A stretch of DNA of 49,014 nt, taken from the IMG/VR virus record IMGVR_UViG_3300006802_000142, positions 1-49,014 of that record; one strand, given 5' to 3'. The notes beneath the pieces were generated by a model that saw only the letters and a program-made list of their open reading frames with translations, was not told where the DNA came from and made no database searches. Both the position numbers and the translations under genes were made by a program. Shown here piece after piece: positions 3,147-39,344 of the stretch (within the stretch, counting starts at the first letter, position 1; each line of letters opens with the position of its first letter). The DNA is from a virus.

Positions 3147-3176
3147 TTGACACGATATAAGGATTACCTGTATAAT
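3147..3176 (+). promoter_or_regulatory. consensus sigma70 promoter, rightward into non-coding DNA
   Basis: TTGACA (3147-3152), 18-nt spacer, TATAAT (3171-3176): both hexamers are perfect. Transcription would start near 3183 and run through the DnaA-box-like cluster and the inverted-repeat arm, where I see no rightward gene until the decayed copy. It could make a replication primer, a regulatory or antisense RNA, or an RNA opposing the 3628-4226 genes. Confidence 0.65.
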
Positions 3177-3295
3177 CTACGGAGATTAAAAAGGTTATAT
3201 GTTTGGAGTTGAGGTATTTAGTGGTAGTTGCTTGAAAACTTCTAAAACTTCTAAAACTTAATAATATTCTGGGTAAATTTTAAATGAAAAATAAG

Positions 3296-3325
3296 TTATC
3301 CACAAGTTATACATACTTATACACA
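3296..3325 (+). other. three DnaA-box-like 9-mers: candidate replication origin
   Basis: TTATCCACA (3296-3304) and TTATACACA (3317-3325) match the TTATNCACA bacterial DnaA box exactly. TTATACATA (3307-3315) differs by one base. All three are on the same strand with spacers of 2 and 1 nt. They lie in AT-rich non-coding DNA at the divergence point of leftward and rightward genes, next to a consensus promoter. Confidence 0.55.
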
Positions 3326-3578
3326 AGGAATAGACAAGTTACTAACAGCAACTCGTTCAGTACTCAGGCGGTTTTTACAAGGCGTTATTAACTCATATAA
3401 TTAAATTTAGGTATGGGTATGGTCATATAAAGAGCTGAGTTTATCTCAGTTATAAATGCCCACCCGAATTTTCCAGTTCTCTTCAGGTATGAATTGTATG
3501 TTTGTGAATGCAAACTTTGACAAGAAGACATATGAGACCTGGAAAATTCTTAAAATGAATCTGCTCTAATTTAAACAT

Positions 3579-3610
3579 AAAAAAAGCTCCCTTTAATTAA
3601 AAAGAGAGCT
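3579..3610 (-). terminator. intrinsic terminator of the 3628-4226 module
   Basis: On the minus strand AGCTCTCT (3610-3603) pairs with AGGGAGCT (3592-3585), with one mismatch and an A/T-rich 10-nt loop, followed by seven U (3585-3579). It lies 18 bp after the stop of the leftward gene at 3628, exactly where a terminator is expected. Confidence 0.75.
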
Positions 3611-3627
3611 TAATTAGTAACTAAATC

Positions 3628-4029
3628 TTATAATTTAGTTGCAACAACCTTTAAAAACATATCAACTGGAGTCTTTTCTTGATTATGTTCCTTAAAAGAT
3701 TTAGTTACTTTAACCATAATTCTTTTAGGAAGAGCTTTAGAATTATCCTCAAAATATGCTTGGCAAGCATCAGAATCAAATTTCTTATCATCTAAAAGAA
3801 CTTTAGAAACTCTAGCTTTAATTCTATTATTGAAAGATTTTTTCATTGATTCTGACTCATTTTCACGAGGGTCAGATTCGAAAACCTTCTGAATAAAGCT
3901 TTCTAATGTGAAATTTGCTACACAATATGCTTGCTTTCTAGTGCAAGGTCTTCCTGACATTTTGTTAGCGTTAAATCCGGCAGACTTGTCTGCATTTTTT
4001 GTTACAATGAAATCACTTAATGTTTTCAT
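3628..4029 (-). CDS. hypothetical basic protein, 133 residues (duplicated gene)
   Basis: Leftward gene beginning MKTLSDFIVTKN, 2 bp after the 64-residue gene, with its own terminator. The protein is Lys-rich with a short Cys-containing stretch (SGRPCTRKQAYC) and a helical, charged C-terminal half (NNRIKARVSKVLLDD). No family is recognised. A decayed inverted copy of the same gene lies at 4654-5034, where LSDFIV(S/T)KN and the SDACQAY-encoding bases are still readable. Beside the candidate origin, a replication-control or DNA-binding role is possible but is inference only. Confidence 0.65.
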   Translation of the reverse strand: MKTLSDFIVTKNADKSAGFNANKMSGRPCTRKQAYCVANFTLESFIQKVFESDPRENESESMKKSFNNRIKARVSKVLLDDKKFDSDACQAYFEDNSKALPKRIMVKVTKSFKEHNQEKTPVDMFLKVVATKL

Positions 4030-4031
4030 GT

Positions 4032-4226
4032 TTATTTACCTTTATAGGTTAGTTGAAGTTCTTCAATTTGAGATTGAAGCCGTTTAAAATCAGAAGCTGA
4101 TGAGCATCTGAATCCTGCGATTAAAAAGTTTTTAAGCAAATAAGCCTTAATAACTTCTTGAACCATAGAATAAGTAGGAATTACTACTGTTTCGTTGTTA
4201 GAAAATGTTATTAGAATTTCTCTCAT
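4032..4226 (-). CDS. hypothetical protein, 64 residues (duplicated gene)
   Basis: First gene of the leftward two-gene module, starting MREILITFSNN at 4226. The predicted layout is a short beta strand (REILITFSNNETVVIP) followed by a helix (MVQEVIKAYLLKNFLI) and a second charged helix (DFKRLQSQIEELQL). No family is recognised. The inverted copy at 4448-4651 has lost the ATG (TTG at the equivalent place) and is frameshifted, while the bases around CAGATGCTCATCAG are conserved. The first gene may bind DNA or regulate the second, but nothing in the sequence proves it. Confidence 0.6.
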   Translation of the reverse strand: MREILITFSNNETVVIPTYSMVQEVIKAYLLKNFLIAGFRCSSASDFKRLQSQIEELQLTYKGK

Positions 4227-4276
4227 GTTATATTCCTTTGCGATTTAAAAGAACAATACAAAACATCAAGGATTTT

Positions 4277-4360
4277 AATATGCAAATGCTTGAAATTGAA
4301 GAGCTTTACCTCAATTTTTTTACATTTTGTGCTTTTTAAAATGTGAAACATTTGCATATT
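4277..4360. repeat. nested palindromes between inverted-repeat arms
   Basis: AATATGCAAATG (4277-4288) is the exact inverse of CATTTGCATATT (4349-4360). Inside it, ACATTTT (4322-4328) is the inverse of AAAATGT (4338-4344). The stretch is strongly AT-rich and free of genes. It sits in the unique centre (4246-4428) between the arms of the large inverted repeat, upstream of the leftward module, so operator sites or a cruciform-forming element are plausible. Confidence 0.5.
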
Positions 4361-4379
4361 ACAATACTATGTTATCGTT

Positions 4380-4419
4380 AACTAGAAAAACTTTAAAACT
4401 TTAAATGTTTTTTCTAGTT
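4380..4419. repeat. perfect 11-bp palindrome arms
   Basis: AACTAGAAAAA (4380-4390) is the exact inverse of TTTTTCTAGTT (4409-4419), with an AT-rich loop containing CTTTAAAACTTTAAA. It adjoins the right arm of the large inverted repeat. Confidence 0.5.
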
Positions 4420-4447
4420 TTGTTCTGGAATCGCAAAGGAATTAACC

Positions 4448-4651
4448 TTGAGGGAATTATAATTATCAGTTTCTTAGAACGAAACAGTACTAATTCTGTA
4501 GTTATTGTAAGGTTCAAGAAGTTTGTTATGATTATTTGCTTAAAACCAAACAATCGCAGAAGTATTCAGATGCTCATCAGATAATGATATTTTAAACAGG
4601 CTTTACATATCAAATGAATCTTTTTACTTCACAAACTTCTAAAGTAAATAA
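4448..4651 (+). pseudogene. decayed copy of the 64-residue gene
   Basis: Aligned by eye to the gene at 4032-4226. The start is TTG in place of ATG, and several small insertions and deletions break the frame before CAGATGCTCATCAG. The end is recognisable as AAAGTAAATAAACATG, as in the intact copy (AAAGGTAAATAAACATG). No open frame spans it. Confidence 0.7.
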
Positions 4652-4653
4652 AC

Positions 4654-5034
4654 ATGAAAACTGCTTTTTAAGTGATTTCATTGTATCAAAAAATAGGCGG
4701 AGGTTTAATTTAACACTAACAAAATGTGGAAGACCTAAGCTGAAACAAAGCAAGCTTATTGTCCCAAGCAAATCTTTACTTAGAAAGCTCGGTTAGGTTT
4801 TCTAATATGTCCTCGTACTGTAATGAGCCAGAAGCTTGCGATAATTTTTTATTACAGCTTTAGAAGATTTAGAAGTTACAAAGTATTTTAAAGATTTCTT
4901 TAAGATTCTGATGCTTGCCAAGCCTATGAAAAAGATTCTAAAGCTAATATAGTAGAATTATGGTAATTTGAGAAATCTTTAATTGAAATAATTAAGAACT
5001 GTAAAGAGTTGTAGTTTACAAAGGCTGTAATATA
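4654..5034 (+). pseudogene. decayed copy of the 133-residue gene
   Basis: Begins ATGAAAACTGC at 4654, and a frame open from 4614 still encodes LSDFIVSKN and a CGRPKLKQ segment like LSDFIVTKN and SGRPCTRKQ of the intact gene at 3628-4029. It stops at 4796. The middle of the gene is missing or unrecognisable, but GATTCTGATGCTTGCCAAGC reappears near 4900, followed by several stops. It is a broken duplicate rather than an expressed gene. Confidence 0.7.
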
Positions 5035-5319
5035 AAAAATTATTGTTTCAGCTAATTAAGCTATCAATAAAAAAAGGGAGCTACTGATAGGTGGTATCTG
5101 ATGAGCAGATTCCTTTTAGTGGGTGGGCAGAAGACCATACCCATACCACTATATATCTATGTACTGATCATACATTTTTAGAAGTTTTAGTAGTTAACCA
5201 GATCTAACTGGTATATCTGCGCCTATTAAAGACTCCATAGACTACATATGTGACCTGCTCGGCACATAAGTTATTATATAGTTAATTTTTAAGTTTGTCA
5301 AGGGCTATAGAAAATAAAG
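5035..5319. other. gene-free promoter region before the late operon
   Basis: This stretch holds the terminator remnant and outer end of the inverted repeat (to 5147), a TTTTTAGAAGTTTTAG segment inverse to the 3238 repeat, a leftward consensus promoter (5273-5301) and the start of the rightward late promoter. No coding frame is convincing. Confidence 0.6.
5273..5301 (-). promoter_or_regulatory. consensus sigma70 promoter, leftward into the decayed module
   Basis: On the minus strand TTGACA (5296-5301), 17-nt spacer, TATAAT (5273-5278): perfect hexamers with optimal spacing. Transcription would start near 5266 and run leftward through the decayed copy in antisense, then into the intact leftward genes at 4226. 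Confidence 0.7.
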
Positions 5320-5348
5320 TTGACAAAACTTCTATATGGCTATATACT
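5320..5348 (+). promoter_or_regulatory. sigma70 promoter for the rightward structural operon
   Basis: TTGACA (5320-5325), 17-nt spacer, TATACT (5343-5348): five of six at -10 and perfect at -35. The expected start is near 5355. It is divergent to the promoter at 5273-5301, with the two -35 boxes 18 bp apart. The in-frame ATG at 5336 lies inside this promoter, which argues that translation of the first gene starts downstream. Confidence 0.7.
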
Positions 5349-35998: not shown

Positions 35999-36349
35999 AT
36001 GGTAGAAGCAATAGACTTCATAAACCAAGTAGGATTCCCGATTGCTAGTGCGCTAGGATTGGGTTTCTTCATTTGGAAGCTTATAAATAAAATCATTGAT
36101 GGCATGGAAAAGAAGATAGATGTTGTTGATGAAAAGGTAGATGCTAGTTTAAATGCTATGGAAGAACGGCTTAGTACTAAACTAGATTCTCAATATGGCA
36201 TCATAGTAGCTTTAATTGATAGAGTAAGATCTCTTGATAATCAAACAATACGACAAGATGTACTTCTTAAAACTTTGTTAGGTATTCCTAACTTAATTGA
36301 AATAGATAAAGTGAGTAAAGCAGACCGTGAAGATCAAAGAAAAGATTGA
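35999..36349 (+). CDS. membrane-anchored coiled-coil protein, holin-like
   Basis: 116 residues. One hydrophobic helix (FPIASALGLGFFIWKLI) near the N-terminus is followed by a long coiled coil (IIDGMEKKIDVVDEKVDASLNAMEERLSTKLDS). The arrangement resembles BhlA/XhlA-type lysis accessory proteins and the protein at 20862. It overlaps the GTG start of the CsgF gene by 23 bp, so lysis and secretion genes are in one message. A second holin, an antiholin or an inner-membrane anchor for the secretion cassette are the main options. Confidence 0.65.
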   Translation: MVEAIDFINQVGFPIASALGLGFFIWKLINKIIDGMEKKIDVVDEKVDASLNAMEERLSTKLDSQYGIIVALIDRVRSLDNQTIRQDVLLKTLLGIPNLIEIDKVSKADREDQRKD

Positions 36350-36830
36350 AAATATATCAATAAACAAACTTATTAATTTATTATTTGTGTGTAATTTTAT
36401 TTTTTTGTTTATGGTAATTTTTTTTAGTGACGCATTAAAAGCTGACGAAATACTTTACAAGTTTAAAAGTCCTAGCTTCTCTGGAATAAATACATCAAGT
36501 CATTATCTTACTATAGAAAACCAAGAAGCTACAAGAGTTAGAGATATTAAAGAAGAGATAGAAGCTTATAAAGATGAACTAGCCAGAGAAGCAGACAACA
36601 CTACACTTGCAAGGTTTATAAGAAACTTAGAAAGCAGAATCTACGCACAGTTGTCACGACAAATGGTAGAGCAACTGTTCGGAGAAACACCACAAACATC
36701 AGGTACACTTGAGCTAGAGGGCAACACTATTGAATACAAAGTTGAAAATGAACTTATCACACTTACTATCACAGATGAAGAAGGTAGCGTTACCAGTATT
36801 TCTGTGCCTATCGGCAGCTTTACTTTCTAG
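36327..36830 (+). CDS. csgF: CsgF homologue (curli secretion coupling protein)
   Basis: 167 residues from a GTG start overlapping the previous gene. A 39-residue signal peptide ends DALKA before DEI. The mature N-terminus, YKFKSPSFSGINTSSHYLT, matches the CsgF start from memory (hydrophobic-F-x-(F/S)-PNFGG), which in Escherichia coli lines and extends the CsgG pore. The middle (RFIRNLESRIYAQLSRQMVEQLFGE) is helical. The end (TLTITDEEGSVTSISVPIG) matches the CsgF C-terminal beta part. It is longer than the E. coli protein (138). It directly precedes csgG, as expected. The family call is by pattern; the role in phage is unknown. Confidence 0.88.
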   Translation: MKIKEKIENISINKLINLLFVCNFIFLFMVIFFSDALKADEILYKFKSPSFSGINTSSHYLTIENQEATRVRDIKEEIEAYKDELAREADNTTLARFIRNLESRIYAQLSRQMVEQLFGETPQTSGTLELEGNTIEYKVENELITLTITDEEGSVTSISVPIGSFTF

Positions 36831-37596
36831 TTGTGCGCCAAGATATAGTTCTTTATTACAGGAAGGTGGTCTTCCTTATATTGTTATTGAGAAAGCTTCT
36901 GTATTAGATTTACAATCAGAAGAACTAAAGAACATACCTGCTGCAAAAAGAAAACCAGTAATAGCTATTTATCCTAATAGCTTCAAAGATCAAACAGGAC
37001 AAAGAAAAAGCAACGGACAGTTTGCTTTGTTTAGTACTGCAATAACACAAGCACCAGAAGCTTTTCTTATTAGAGCTTTGAAACATGCAGCAGATGGTGA
37101 GTTCTTTCAAGTGGTAGAACGTGTGGGTTTAGACTCATTAACCAAAGAAAGGCAACTTATACGCAGTACAAGGGAATCTTTTGAAGAGGAGAGTGCTGTG
37201 AAACCTCTTTTACTAGCAGGACTCATGGTACAAGGAGCTGTCCTATCCATAGATAGGAACATAAGAAGCGGTGGAATGGGTGCTAGGTACTTAGGCATAG
37301 GATCTAGTAAAGAATACAGAGAAGACTTAATAACTATATCACTTAGATTAGTTTCAGTATCTACAGGAGAAGTTCTTATAGAAGTATTAGTCAACAAAAG
37401 TGTTATATCAGTAGGACTATCACAAGATCTATTTCGTTTTATCTCAAGTGGAACAGAACTTGTTGAAATCGAGGGAGGAGCATCAGAGAATGAGTCAAGT
37501 TCTTTAGCTCTTCAACAAGCAATAGAAGAAGGAGTACTGTCTATAATTAAGACAGGTATAATTAGGAGGTATTGGGAATATGAAAAAGTTAATTAG
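36775..37596 (+). CDS. csgG: CsgG homologue (outer-membrane curli secretion channel lipoprotein)
   Basis: 273 residues. Start at ATG 36775, inside the csgF end. A signal peptide ends in lipobox LSSC with Cys20. From memory of E. coli CsgG, aligned stretches are VIAIYPNSFKDQTGQ, FSTAITQAPEAFLIRAL, VERVGLDSLTKERQLIRSTRE, SGGMGARYLGIGSSKEY and LRLVSVSTGEVL. These are the core of the nonameric 36-strand barrel that exports curli subunits across the outer membrane. The eyelet segment keeps the Phe but reads LF in place of the E. coli NF, and the Tyr is not evident. Mature length is 254 (E. coli 262). It overlaps csgF by 56 bp and the next gene by 17 bp. No CsgE is seen. Confidence 0.94.
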   Translation: MKKVALPVFLCLSAALLSSCAPRYSSLLQEGGLPYIVIEKASVLDLQSEELKNIPAAKRKPVIAIYPNSFKDQTGQRKSNGQFALFSTAITQAPEAFLIRALKHAADGEFFQVVERVGLDSLTKERQLIRSTRESFEEESAVKPLLLAGLMVQGAVLSIDRNIRSGGMGARYLGIGSSKEYREDLITISLRLVSVSTGEVLIEVLVNKSVISVGLSQDLFRFISSGTELVEIEGGASENESSSLALQQAIEEGVLSIIKTGIIRRYWEYEKVN

Positions 37597-38326
37597 TATG
37601 CTAGATTGTACTTTATTTAGTGTAGCTGTAATAGCAGGTAGCGTTTATTTATTTAATGAAGTTAGAGCTGATGATAATGAAATATATGTAGATCAAGTAG
37701 GTGCTACAGCAAATATAGATCTTGAGCAGCTTGGAAGTGGTAACATAATCGGAGGTTTACTATCGACACACGGATCTATGACTCCGTTTGATCTTGATGG
37801 TGCAACCATGACGCTAGATGTAAATCAAATAGGTAACAACAACAAGATGCTTGGTGATATAAATAGTGATACATTTACTGGTGTCTTTGATTTTGATGGT
37901 GATACTAATAGTTTCACTATTCAAGTCGATCCTACAAATACTTATTCGGCAGACAACTCAAATGTAAACGTAGATGTTGACGGAAGTACAAATACATTTA
38001 CTCTTGATCTAGCTACAAACAGTTTAGCAAGTGGCGCAGATATTGACACTATAGTACAAGGAGATTCAAATACTGTGAACATTGATTTAGATGTAGACTC
38101 TGCTACAAACTACATAGATCTTGATGGTGACAGTAACACAGTTAATTATGATGGAGATGGGTATGCGTCTGGGTATTTCAAGTTGGAACACGATGGTAAC
38201 TCAAGGTCGTTTGCTATTGATCAACAGTCTACTTTGGATAATGACTGGTTGCGCATTGTGTCTGACGGAAACAACGGAACAGTATGCGTTAATCAGGACG
38301 ATCAAGGCACAGCAGTTGGATGTTGA
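37580..38326 (+). CDS. curlin-repeat-like secreted protein
   Basis: 248 residues with an AGGAGG site before the ATG. A signal peptide ends VRA before DDN. The mature start (IYVDQVGATANIDLEQLGSGN) matches two curlin repeats (I-x-Q-x-G-x2-N/A-x4-Q-x-G-x2-N). Later units are looser: VNQIGNNNKML, VDGSTNTFTLDL, VQGDSNTVNIDL, LDGDSNTVNYDG, rich in Asn, Asp, Ser, Thr and Gly like amyloid or beta-solenoid repeats. The C-terminus holds a Cys pair (VCVNQDDQGTAVGC). It overlaps csgG by 17 bp, so it is the likely cargo of the CsgG/F channel. Whether it forms amyloid fibres is inference. Confidence 0.8.
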   Translation: MKKLISMLDCTLFSVAVIAGSVYLFNEVRADDNEIYVDQVGATANIDLEQLGSGNIIGGLLSTHGSMTPFDLDGATMTLDVNQIGNNNKMLGDINSDTFTGVFDFDGDTNSFTIQVDPTNTYSADNSNVNVDVDGSTNTFTLDLATNSLASGADIDTIVQGDSNTVNIDLDVDSATNYIDLDGDSNTVNYDGDGYASGYFKLEHDGNSRSFAIDQQSTLDNDWLRIVSDGNNGTVCVNQDDQGTAVGC

Positions 38327-39344
38327 TATAGGAAGTATTACAGAACTAAACGGAAACACCAGAGTAGTAAGAGACAAACCATACGAAAGTTCTATAGACT
38401 TTTCTCTTAATGCTATGGACAAACTAGAAACTGCTCAAGGCAGAATGGGTGTTACGTTTAGAGATGAAACTACAATACGTCTAACAGAACACAGCAATGT
38501 TATTATTGATGAGTTTGTGTTCGATCCTAATCCAAGTAAGTCTAGCATGGCTCTTAACTTTGTTAAGGGTACTGGTAGATTTATATCCAGTAAAAAGAAA
38601 CGTATACCTAACGACAACATTACTGTAAGGACACACGCTGCTACCATTGGAATAAGAGGTACAGACTTTACAATAACTGTAAAAGAAACTGGTGAAGCTT
38701 TGGTAATACTTTTACCTGATGAGTTTGGTAATGCTAGTGGAGAGATAACTGTAAACACAGCGTTAGGACAAGTAATACTTAACAAACCTTATGAAGCTAC
38801 TACAGTCTATAACTTTGAAACTGCACCAACTCCTTCGGTTATATTAGATCTAAGCATAGACATGATAGACAACATGCTTATTGTTAATCCACCAGAAAGA
38901 GAAGAGATAGAATCAGATGAAGGTAACGCAGTAGCAGATAACATACTCGATGTAGACTTGTTAGAGTTTAACGATCTAGATGAAGACCAACTACAGGAAA
39001 ACGAATTAGAATATACAGAGCTAGATATAGACTATCTGGCAGGTAATTTTCTTGAAGATCTGCTAGATATAATTCAAGATGTTGATGAACTTAGTAAAGC
39101 TGAGAAGTCTTTATCGGCTGATGGAGTTAAAGGAACAGCAGTCGGTTATGATAGTGACACACAGATAAGCACCTTTATAACTGATACTCACCTAAAGTTC
39201 TTGCGTCAGATAGAAGATACATTAGAAATGAAAGTAGATAAAGCAGGCTCGTACAATATTCGTATTGAGCAAGAAGGTAAAGTAAATCAGATCACTACCA
39301 ACGGAGGTAGTAGTTCTAATATTACAATAAAACAAGGTAGTTAA
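38193..39344 (+). CDS. FecR-domain protein with C-terminal curlin-like unit
   Basis: The frame is open from 38121. The ATG at 38193 gives a signal-like start (RLLLINSLLWIMTGCALCL), possibly a lipoprotein; the exact start is uncertain. The FecR-type domain spans about residues 50-180: IGSITELNGNTRVV, LETAQGRMGVTFRDETTIRL, VKGTGRFISSKK and ITVRTHAATIGIRGTDFTI. An acidic region (DVDLLEFNDLDEDQLQENELEY) follows. The last 30 residues (YNIRIEQEGKVNQITTNGG and following) read like one or two curlin repeats. It overlaps the curlin-like gene by 134 bp in another frame. FecR-domain proteins accompany CsgG in some bacteria; here it may anchor or nucleate the secreted repeat protein. Confidence 0.8.
   Translation: MVTQGRLLLINSLLWIMTGCALCLTETTEQYALIRTIKAQQLDVDIGSITELNGNTRVVRDKPYESSIDFSLNAMDKLETAQGRMGVTFRDETTIRLTEHSNVIIDEFVFDPNPSKSSMALNFVKGTGRFISSKKKRIPNDNITVRTHAATIGIRGTDFTITVKETGEALVILLPDEFGNASGEITVNTALGQVILNKPYEATTVYNFETAPTPSVILDLSIDMIDNMLIVNPPEREEIESDEGNAVADNILDVDLLEFNDLDEDQLQENELEYTELDIDYLAGNFLEDLLDIIQDVDELSKAEKSLSADGVKGTAVGYDSDTQISTFITDTHLKFLRQIEDTLEMKVDKAGSYNIRIEQEGKVNQITTNGGSSSNITIKQGS

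Follow-up and report, generated by a model that had tools for sequence, protein, structure and literature searches.

Hepatitis delta RNA is a rod-like, circular RNA replicon that encodes a protein. In phage lambda, DnaA boxes lie near pO, the promoter that makes an antisense RNA at ori-lambda, and the short OOP transcript acts on cII mRNA in an RNase III-dependent manner (PMC3985674). The locus described here resembles lambda pO/OOP in that a promoter beside a probable phage origin with DnaA boxes is directed antisense to an early gene and is convergent with the early promoter, an arrangement that fits a cis-antisense RNA of the OOP kind. Unlike OOP, the predicted transcript, as read from the DNA, would contain ~0.7 kb of antisense followed by its own complement within one molecule.

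Architecture of the inverted locus

The window, a 49,014-base virus record, belongs to an HMO-2011-type marine podovirus, and its TerL shares 63-65% identity with those of Pelagibacter phages HTVC115P, HTVC104P and HTVC103P and 49% with that of HMO-2011. PolA, a DnaB-type primase-helicase and phrog_1617/GP88 are encoded on the minus strand, while terminase, portal and capsid are on the plus strand. The inverted structure, hereafter the rod, occupies the gap from which the early genes and terS diverge. Among the isolates examined, the rod is absent from HTVC115P, HTVC104P, HTVC033P and HMO-2011. Elsewhere in the window, positions 36327-39344 hold a curli-type secretion cluster with CsgF (E 5e-18), CsgG (E 2e-46) and FecR (E 1e-11), together with a repeat protein that resembles curlin by eye and has no Pfam match; a class II ribonucleotide reductase adjoins this cluster.

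The first-pass annotation had proposed that 4429-5147 is an inverse copy of 3410-4245, and the match itself is borne out. When 3.2-5.4 kb is aligned locally with its own opposite strand, the score is 613, whereas shuffled sequences reach 201 at most, and blastn of the region against its own genome gives an opposite-strand match between the two segments at 69% identity, spanning 3551-5118 (E 2.8e-106). The longest clean blocks in the self-alignment pair 4178-4245 with 4429-4496, 4130-4176 with 4499-4545 and, both at 96%, 3994-4020 with 4668-4694 and 3754-3777 with 4904-4927. Arm A (3410-4245, minus strand), as delimited by self-alignment and relatives, is the coding arm and contains ORF1, ORF2 and a terminator; in a plus-strand transcript it would form the 5' antisense arm of a hairpin. 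Arm B (4429-5147, plus strand) is the noncoding complementary arm that co-varies with arm A. The apical part of the rod between them, 183 bp at 4246-4428 with no strand assigned, harbors a shorter inverted repeat (4269-4297/4340-4368). The base of the rod is marked by two 15-mers, GGTATGGGTATGGTC (3410-3424, plus strand) and GACCATACCCATACC (5133-5147, plus strand), the left and right halves of a putative basal clamp, and by the 9-mers of a second clamp box, TGCCCACCC (3457-3465, plus strand) and GGGTGGGCA (5121-5129, plus strand); the positions of both box pairs and of the 183-bp center agree with those first annotated. The earlier suggestion that the outer boxes matter is strengthened by the relatives, as 28 loci have GGTATGGTC on the arm-B side, in most cases at a distance of 12 nt from TGCCCACC, and a subset of loci also has GACCATACC facing it. 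These boxes would suit a basal clamp, or a site for a protein within the leftward leader, or the two together. In addition, AACTTCTAAAACTTCTAAAACTT repeats lie to the left of the rod (3237-3265) with an inverse partner to its right (5167-5195) and, given these repeats, the pairing may extend outward past the clamp boxes.

As initially observed, two genes are open in one copy only. ORF1, the first of the pair (64 aa; 4032-4226, minus strand), and ORF2 (133 aa in the window; 3628-4029, minus strand) are both open reading frames of arm A with no counterpart in arm B, and an intrinsic terminator of the ORF1-ORF2 mRNA is predicted at 3584-3611 on the minus strand. Across related loci ORF1 measures 60-74 aa and ORF2 88-150 aa, the latter being 88-93 aa in most. 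The AlphaFold2 model of an ORF1 relative has a pLDDT of 91 and the order E-E-H-E-H, and the ORF2 model is helical; both are confident. Neither protein has a convincing match to solved structures (PDB sequence and Foldseek searches) or a convincing family match in Pfam or PHROGs, and borderline profile matches of ORF1 to a clostripain-related family (0.002) and of ORF2 to ADAR Z-alpha (0.86) were judged to be due to chance. Codon comparisons show that ORF2 is under coding constraint, with dN/dS values of 0.00-0.28 in eight of nine pairs and 0.67 in the ninth, which has only three synonymous changes. For ORF1 the values are 0.27-0.93 in the measurable pairs and hence coding constraint is weak, though the frame is kept. 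Changes in the ORF2 portion of arm A at paired sites fall on the third codon position in 381 of 571 cases, and half of these are compensated.

The rod is flanked by promoter matches on both sides. A leftward consensus promoter, TTGACA-17-TATAAT (5273-5301, minus strand), reads through arm B into ORF1-ORF2 and retains 11-12 of 12 matches in all 36 representative loci; back to back with it stands the terS/late promoter, TTGACA-17-TATACT (5320-5348, plus strand). On the opposite side, a rightward σ70 consensus promoter, TTGACA-18-TATAAT (12/12; 3147-3176, plus strand), which is retained in L005, a relative with ~85% identity to the window, reads through DnaA boxes into the rod, and a further match (11/12) lies at 3374-3401 on the plus strand. 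The window and L005 have a strong plus-strand promoter, but several clades have one of just 10/12 or lack it. An exact DnaA box, TTATCCACA (3296-3304, plus strand), is followed by a second, TTATACACA (3317-3325, plus strand). Such matches are present at the left edge of the rod in 25 of the 36 representatives, oriented toward it and mostly in clusters of two to four, and several representatives have their first box inside the spacer of a rightward promoter with a 10/12 match. From these DnaA-box matches, a replication origin beside the rod is probable.

The arms are kept complementary by compensatory change

The same structure is found beside terS in ~76 related viral loci (60 distinct), in which the arms are 65-76% complementary and ORF1 and ORF2 are always in one arm and never in the other; in the first 108 loci each module gave one ORF1 and one ORF2 match, with no second in arm B. 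As to whether relatives have one copy or two, both arms are present in L001-L004, which are 99.6-99.9% identical to the window, and in L005, as they are in the wider set. Palindromes of the same plan and place also occur in six distant terL relatives (L010, L030, L039, L044, L058 and L061), most of whose coding arms give no blastn alignment with the window. Indeed, between clades the coding arms have diverged past blastn detection, with arm complementarity retained. Searches with ORF2 added ~70 viral loci and, among the 77 loci analyzed, the rod is present in every one having upstream sequence. Four loci that blastn had missed or misplaced (L108, L111, L153 and L160) gave rod z values of 25-33 by Smith-Waterman; z is 25-40 in the ORF2-bearing loci tested and <7 in terL relatives without ORF2. 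In 74 of the 77 loci terS is divergent to the module, the remaining three being truncated. ORF2 was absent from the named phages and plasmids searched by tblastn and from the genome contigs searched, and a distant blastn search with the region matched none of the named phages. In L018, L054, L056, L057 and L062 the same place upstream of TerL holds two adjacent minus-strand ORFs, of 64-88 aa and 125-141 aa, but no clear palindrome (z 0.5-5.2); these may be relatives of the module that lack the rod or have lost it.

To score co-variation, a double change was defined as a site that is Watson-Crick paired in one genome and altered on both sides in a relative, with the expectation taken from independent change. 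Double changes exceeded this expectation, and most of them restored a Watson-Crick pair. Pooled over genome pairs of 88-93% identity, 250 paired sites had changed on both sides compared with 41 expected, and 203 of them restored a Watson-Crick pair, while registers shifted by 1-5 gave 92-135 double changes (~66 expected), of which 18-52 were Watson-Crick. The pooled pairs have branches in common and so lack independence, a problem from which the single pairs are free: 9 double changes against 0.9 expected for L044/L090, all 9 of them Watson-Crick, 10 against 0.5 for L044/L092, 6 against 0.4 for L096/L097, 13 against 3.9 for L061/L101 and 10 against 1.3 for L058/L240. The window and L005 differ by 36 double changes (17.4 expected), with 28 and 31 restored pairs in register compared with 4-14 in shifted registers. 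A consensus rod of six relatives, derived from the same alignment on which it was scored, contains 483 pairs with 94.8% of cells paired; 69 of these pairs had changed on both sides, a number reached in none of 500 shuffles, and slid versions gave 5-14. RNAalifold recovered only a partial rod over 18 sequences down to 57% identity, and the full rod in tighter clades. Collectively, these comparisons among genomes show an inverted structure of kilobase scale that is maintained, with compensatory change keeping arm B complementary to arm A.

Strand preference and the putative RNA rod

In many lineages the arm mismatches are predominantly G.U, as opposed to A.C, in RNA of the plus (late) strand, with ratios of 59:5 in L143, 51:6 in L164, 51:5 in L089 and 44:3 in L145. 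Of 30 representatives, whose independence is incomplete, 25 have more G.U than A.C on this strand. In 15 of 16 loci the predicted fold also favors the plus strand, by as much as 231 kcal/mol; the difference for the window is 19 kcal/mol. The window lineage, like some others, is without clear strand preference (G.U 19, A.C 15), and thus the strand assigned to the window is drawn from its relatives. G/T skew is near 0 in the right flank, negative in the left flank and ~+0.25 in arm B of the GU-rich lineages; mutational strand bias was rejected as the source of the G.U excess, as the flanks have no G/T excess. The G.U excess and the stabler plus-strand fold, with flanks that do not share the skew, point, for those lineages, to selection on RNA of the plus strand (or on single-stranded DNA). 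In L141 and L151 the mismatches are almost all of transversion type (50 versus 8), so both G.U and A.C are avoided there. In-register compensatory changes combined, in relatives, with one-strand G.U over A.C are the marks of a structured RNA in general, and the selected molecule is most likely an RNA hairpin of 1.2-1.7 kb from the late strand, antisense to ORF1-ORF2.

Two explanations require no function of the rod. The first-pass annotation had read the locus as a simple inverted duplication with one copy decaying, and arm B indeed has no start codon or frame. A decayed gene duplicate would drift away from its partner, whereas double changes here are far above expectation; arm B is noncoding everywhere yet always complementary to its own arm A, and this complementarity outlasts A-to-A similarity between clades. 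Nor does the substitution pattern conform to coding parts in decay, as arm B changes with arm A at single paired bases. The co-variation thus refutes decay, which we regard as very improbable. Mutational homogenization, in which replication template switching keeps mending a quasi-palindrome, draws on a known process that makes and mends hairpins (PMC8794818; also PMC8604942), and the co-changes do fall in register. Because template switching acts on short tracts (PMC8794818), it may supply some of the double changes. The corrected tracts would, however, have been very short: the longest possible copied tract around compensated sites, a bound set by the surviving mismatches that flank them, has a median of 12 nt (quartiles 7 and 18). 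Such mending predicts neither the late-strand G.U excess nor why compact phages throughout the group should retain ~700 noncoding bp, and it appears improbable as the main cause.

The other explanations differ in the molecule that acts. The rod could serve as DNA, either plus-strand single-stranded DNA or a cruciform by the DnaA boxes, in replication or packaging. The DnaA-box array and terS adjoin the rod, and G.T pairs are better tolerated than A.C in DNA too, but the asymmetry is seen in some lineages only, a cruciform would carry no strand bias and we know of no origin with arms of 500-700 nt; a DNA role is therefore distinctly unlikely. An autoregulated mRNA, in which the leftward transcript from 5301 carries the reverse complement of arm B in a long 5' leader that folds over ORF1-ORF2 and limits translation, would account for the leftward promoter being the best conserved element (36/36), and this transcript necessarily holds both arms. 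It is nevertheless unlikely, given that in most lineages the enrichment of wobble pairs is on the opposite strand and that the minus-strand fold is the less stable in 15 of 16 loci. Somewhat less doubtful is an effector role for the rod RNA itself, as a late dsRNA-like decoy or scaffold for RNase III or RNA-sensing defense, or one bound by the ORF1 and ORF2 proteins; the genes would overlap the rod since both move and evolve together, like the rod-like RNAs that encode a protein binding to them. A kilobase rod with conserved pairing and a basal clamp, in a module that always consists of two genes plus rod, is consistent with this role. Uninterrupted helices across all rods reach 28-29 bp and almost never 30 bp or more (1 versus 18 expected), as if limited, a limit that is possible but whose statistic is weak and not phylogenetically corrected. 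Against an effector role, ORF1 and ORF2 give no sign of RNA binding in the form of a structural match.

Taken as a whole, the data lead us to favor, by a modest degree of confidence, a new phage element: a gene pair whose opposite-strand transcript has a dedicated complementary arm and would fold into a giant RNA rod that acts as a decoy, a scaffold or a self-masked countertranscript, coupled to a DnaA-box origin, with wobble pairing keeping the rod closed and the mRNA open. More tentatively, the most likely role of the rod would be that of a self-closed countertranscript that sets the timing of ORF1-ORF2 expression in connection with the phage origin and with the switch from early to late genes. 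Plus-strand transcription would start at promoters in or beside the DnaA-box array left of the rod. The 5' half of the RNA would be antisense to ORF1-ORF2 and its 3' half, arm B, would capture this antisense to give one long rod, folded cotranscriptionally. In the wobble-using lineages the rod would be stable on the plus strand and the same positions would be A.C mismatches on the minus strand, so that the ORF1-ORF2 mRNA from the leftward promoter could stay open for translation; processing, or promoter activity that depends on DnaA, might release part of the antisense. Production of the plus-strand RNA, its cotranscriptional folding and its control of ORF1-ORF2 beside the origin are inferred parts of this countertranscript scheme, whose weakest link is the regulatory step, since extensive self-pairing would be expected to make such an RNA ineffective as antisense.

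Relation to described elements

We found no description of such an element in full-text searches of the open-access literature, and the novelty of the element is accordingly provisional. A comparative paper on HMO-2011-type phages makes no mention of hairpin, palindrome, noncoding, intergenic, promoter or inverted. To our knowledge, no phage hairpin is known that combines arms of 450-640 nt kept by compensation with protein constraint on one strand. Rfam models, including GOLLD, ROOL, hammerhead and HDV ribozyme, gave no matches at gathering score in eight loci, and permissive matches to microRNA, PyrR and snoRNA models, which fall below that score, were rejected. If the RNA is made, widespread marine phages would produce a kilobase dsRNA-like RNA that bears on antisense control at phage origins, RNase III and RNA-sensing defenses, and that would show how a single sequence can serve both a protein and a giant RNA fold. 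More generally, the "decayed inverted duplicates" of phage genomes may be complementary arms with a function.

The rod shares with Obelisks (PMC11922315) a kilobase rod-like fold and proteins encoded within it. Obelisks and hepatitis delta are circular RNA replicons, whereas the rod has a fixed place next to terS in the DNA of a phage, and ORF1 and ORF2 lack a family match, so the locus does not qualify as an Obelisk or viroid-like replicon. With GOLLD and ROOL (PMC12286853) it has in common that these are large structured RNAs of bacteria or phages; they adopt ornate multibranched noncoding folds, in contrast to the rod, which is essentially one hairpin overlapping genes. Inverted repeats with in-register co-changes are also seen in template-switch quasi-palindromes (PMC8794818). 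Unlike those, the rod spans hundreds of bases, shows strand-specific wobble and contains a conserved two-gene module.
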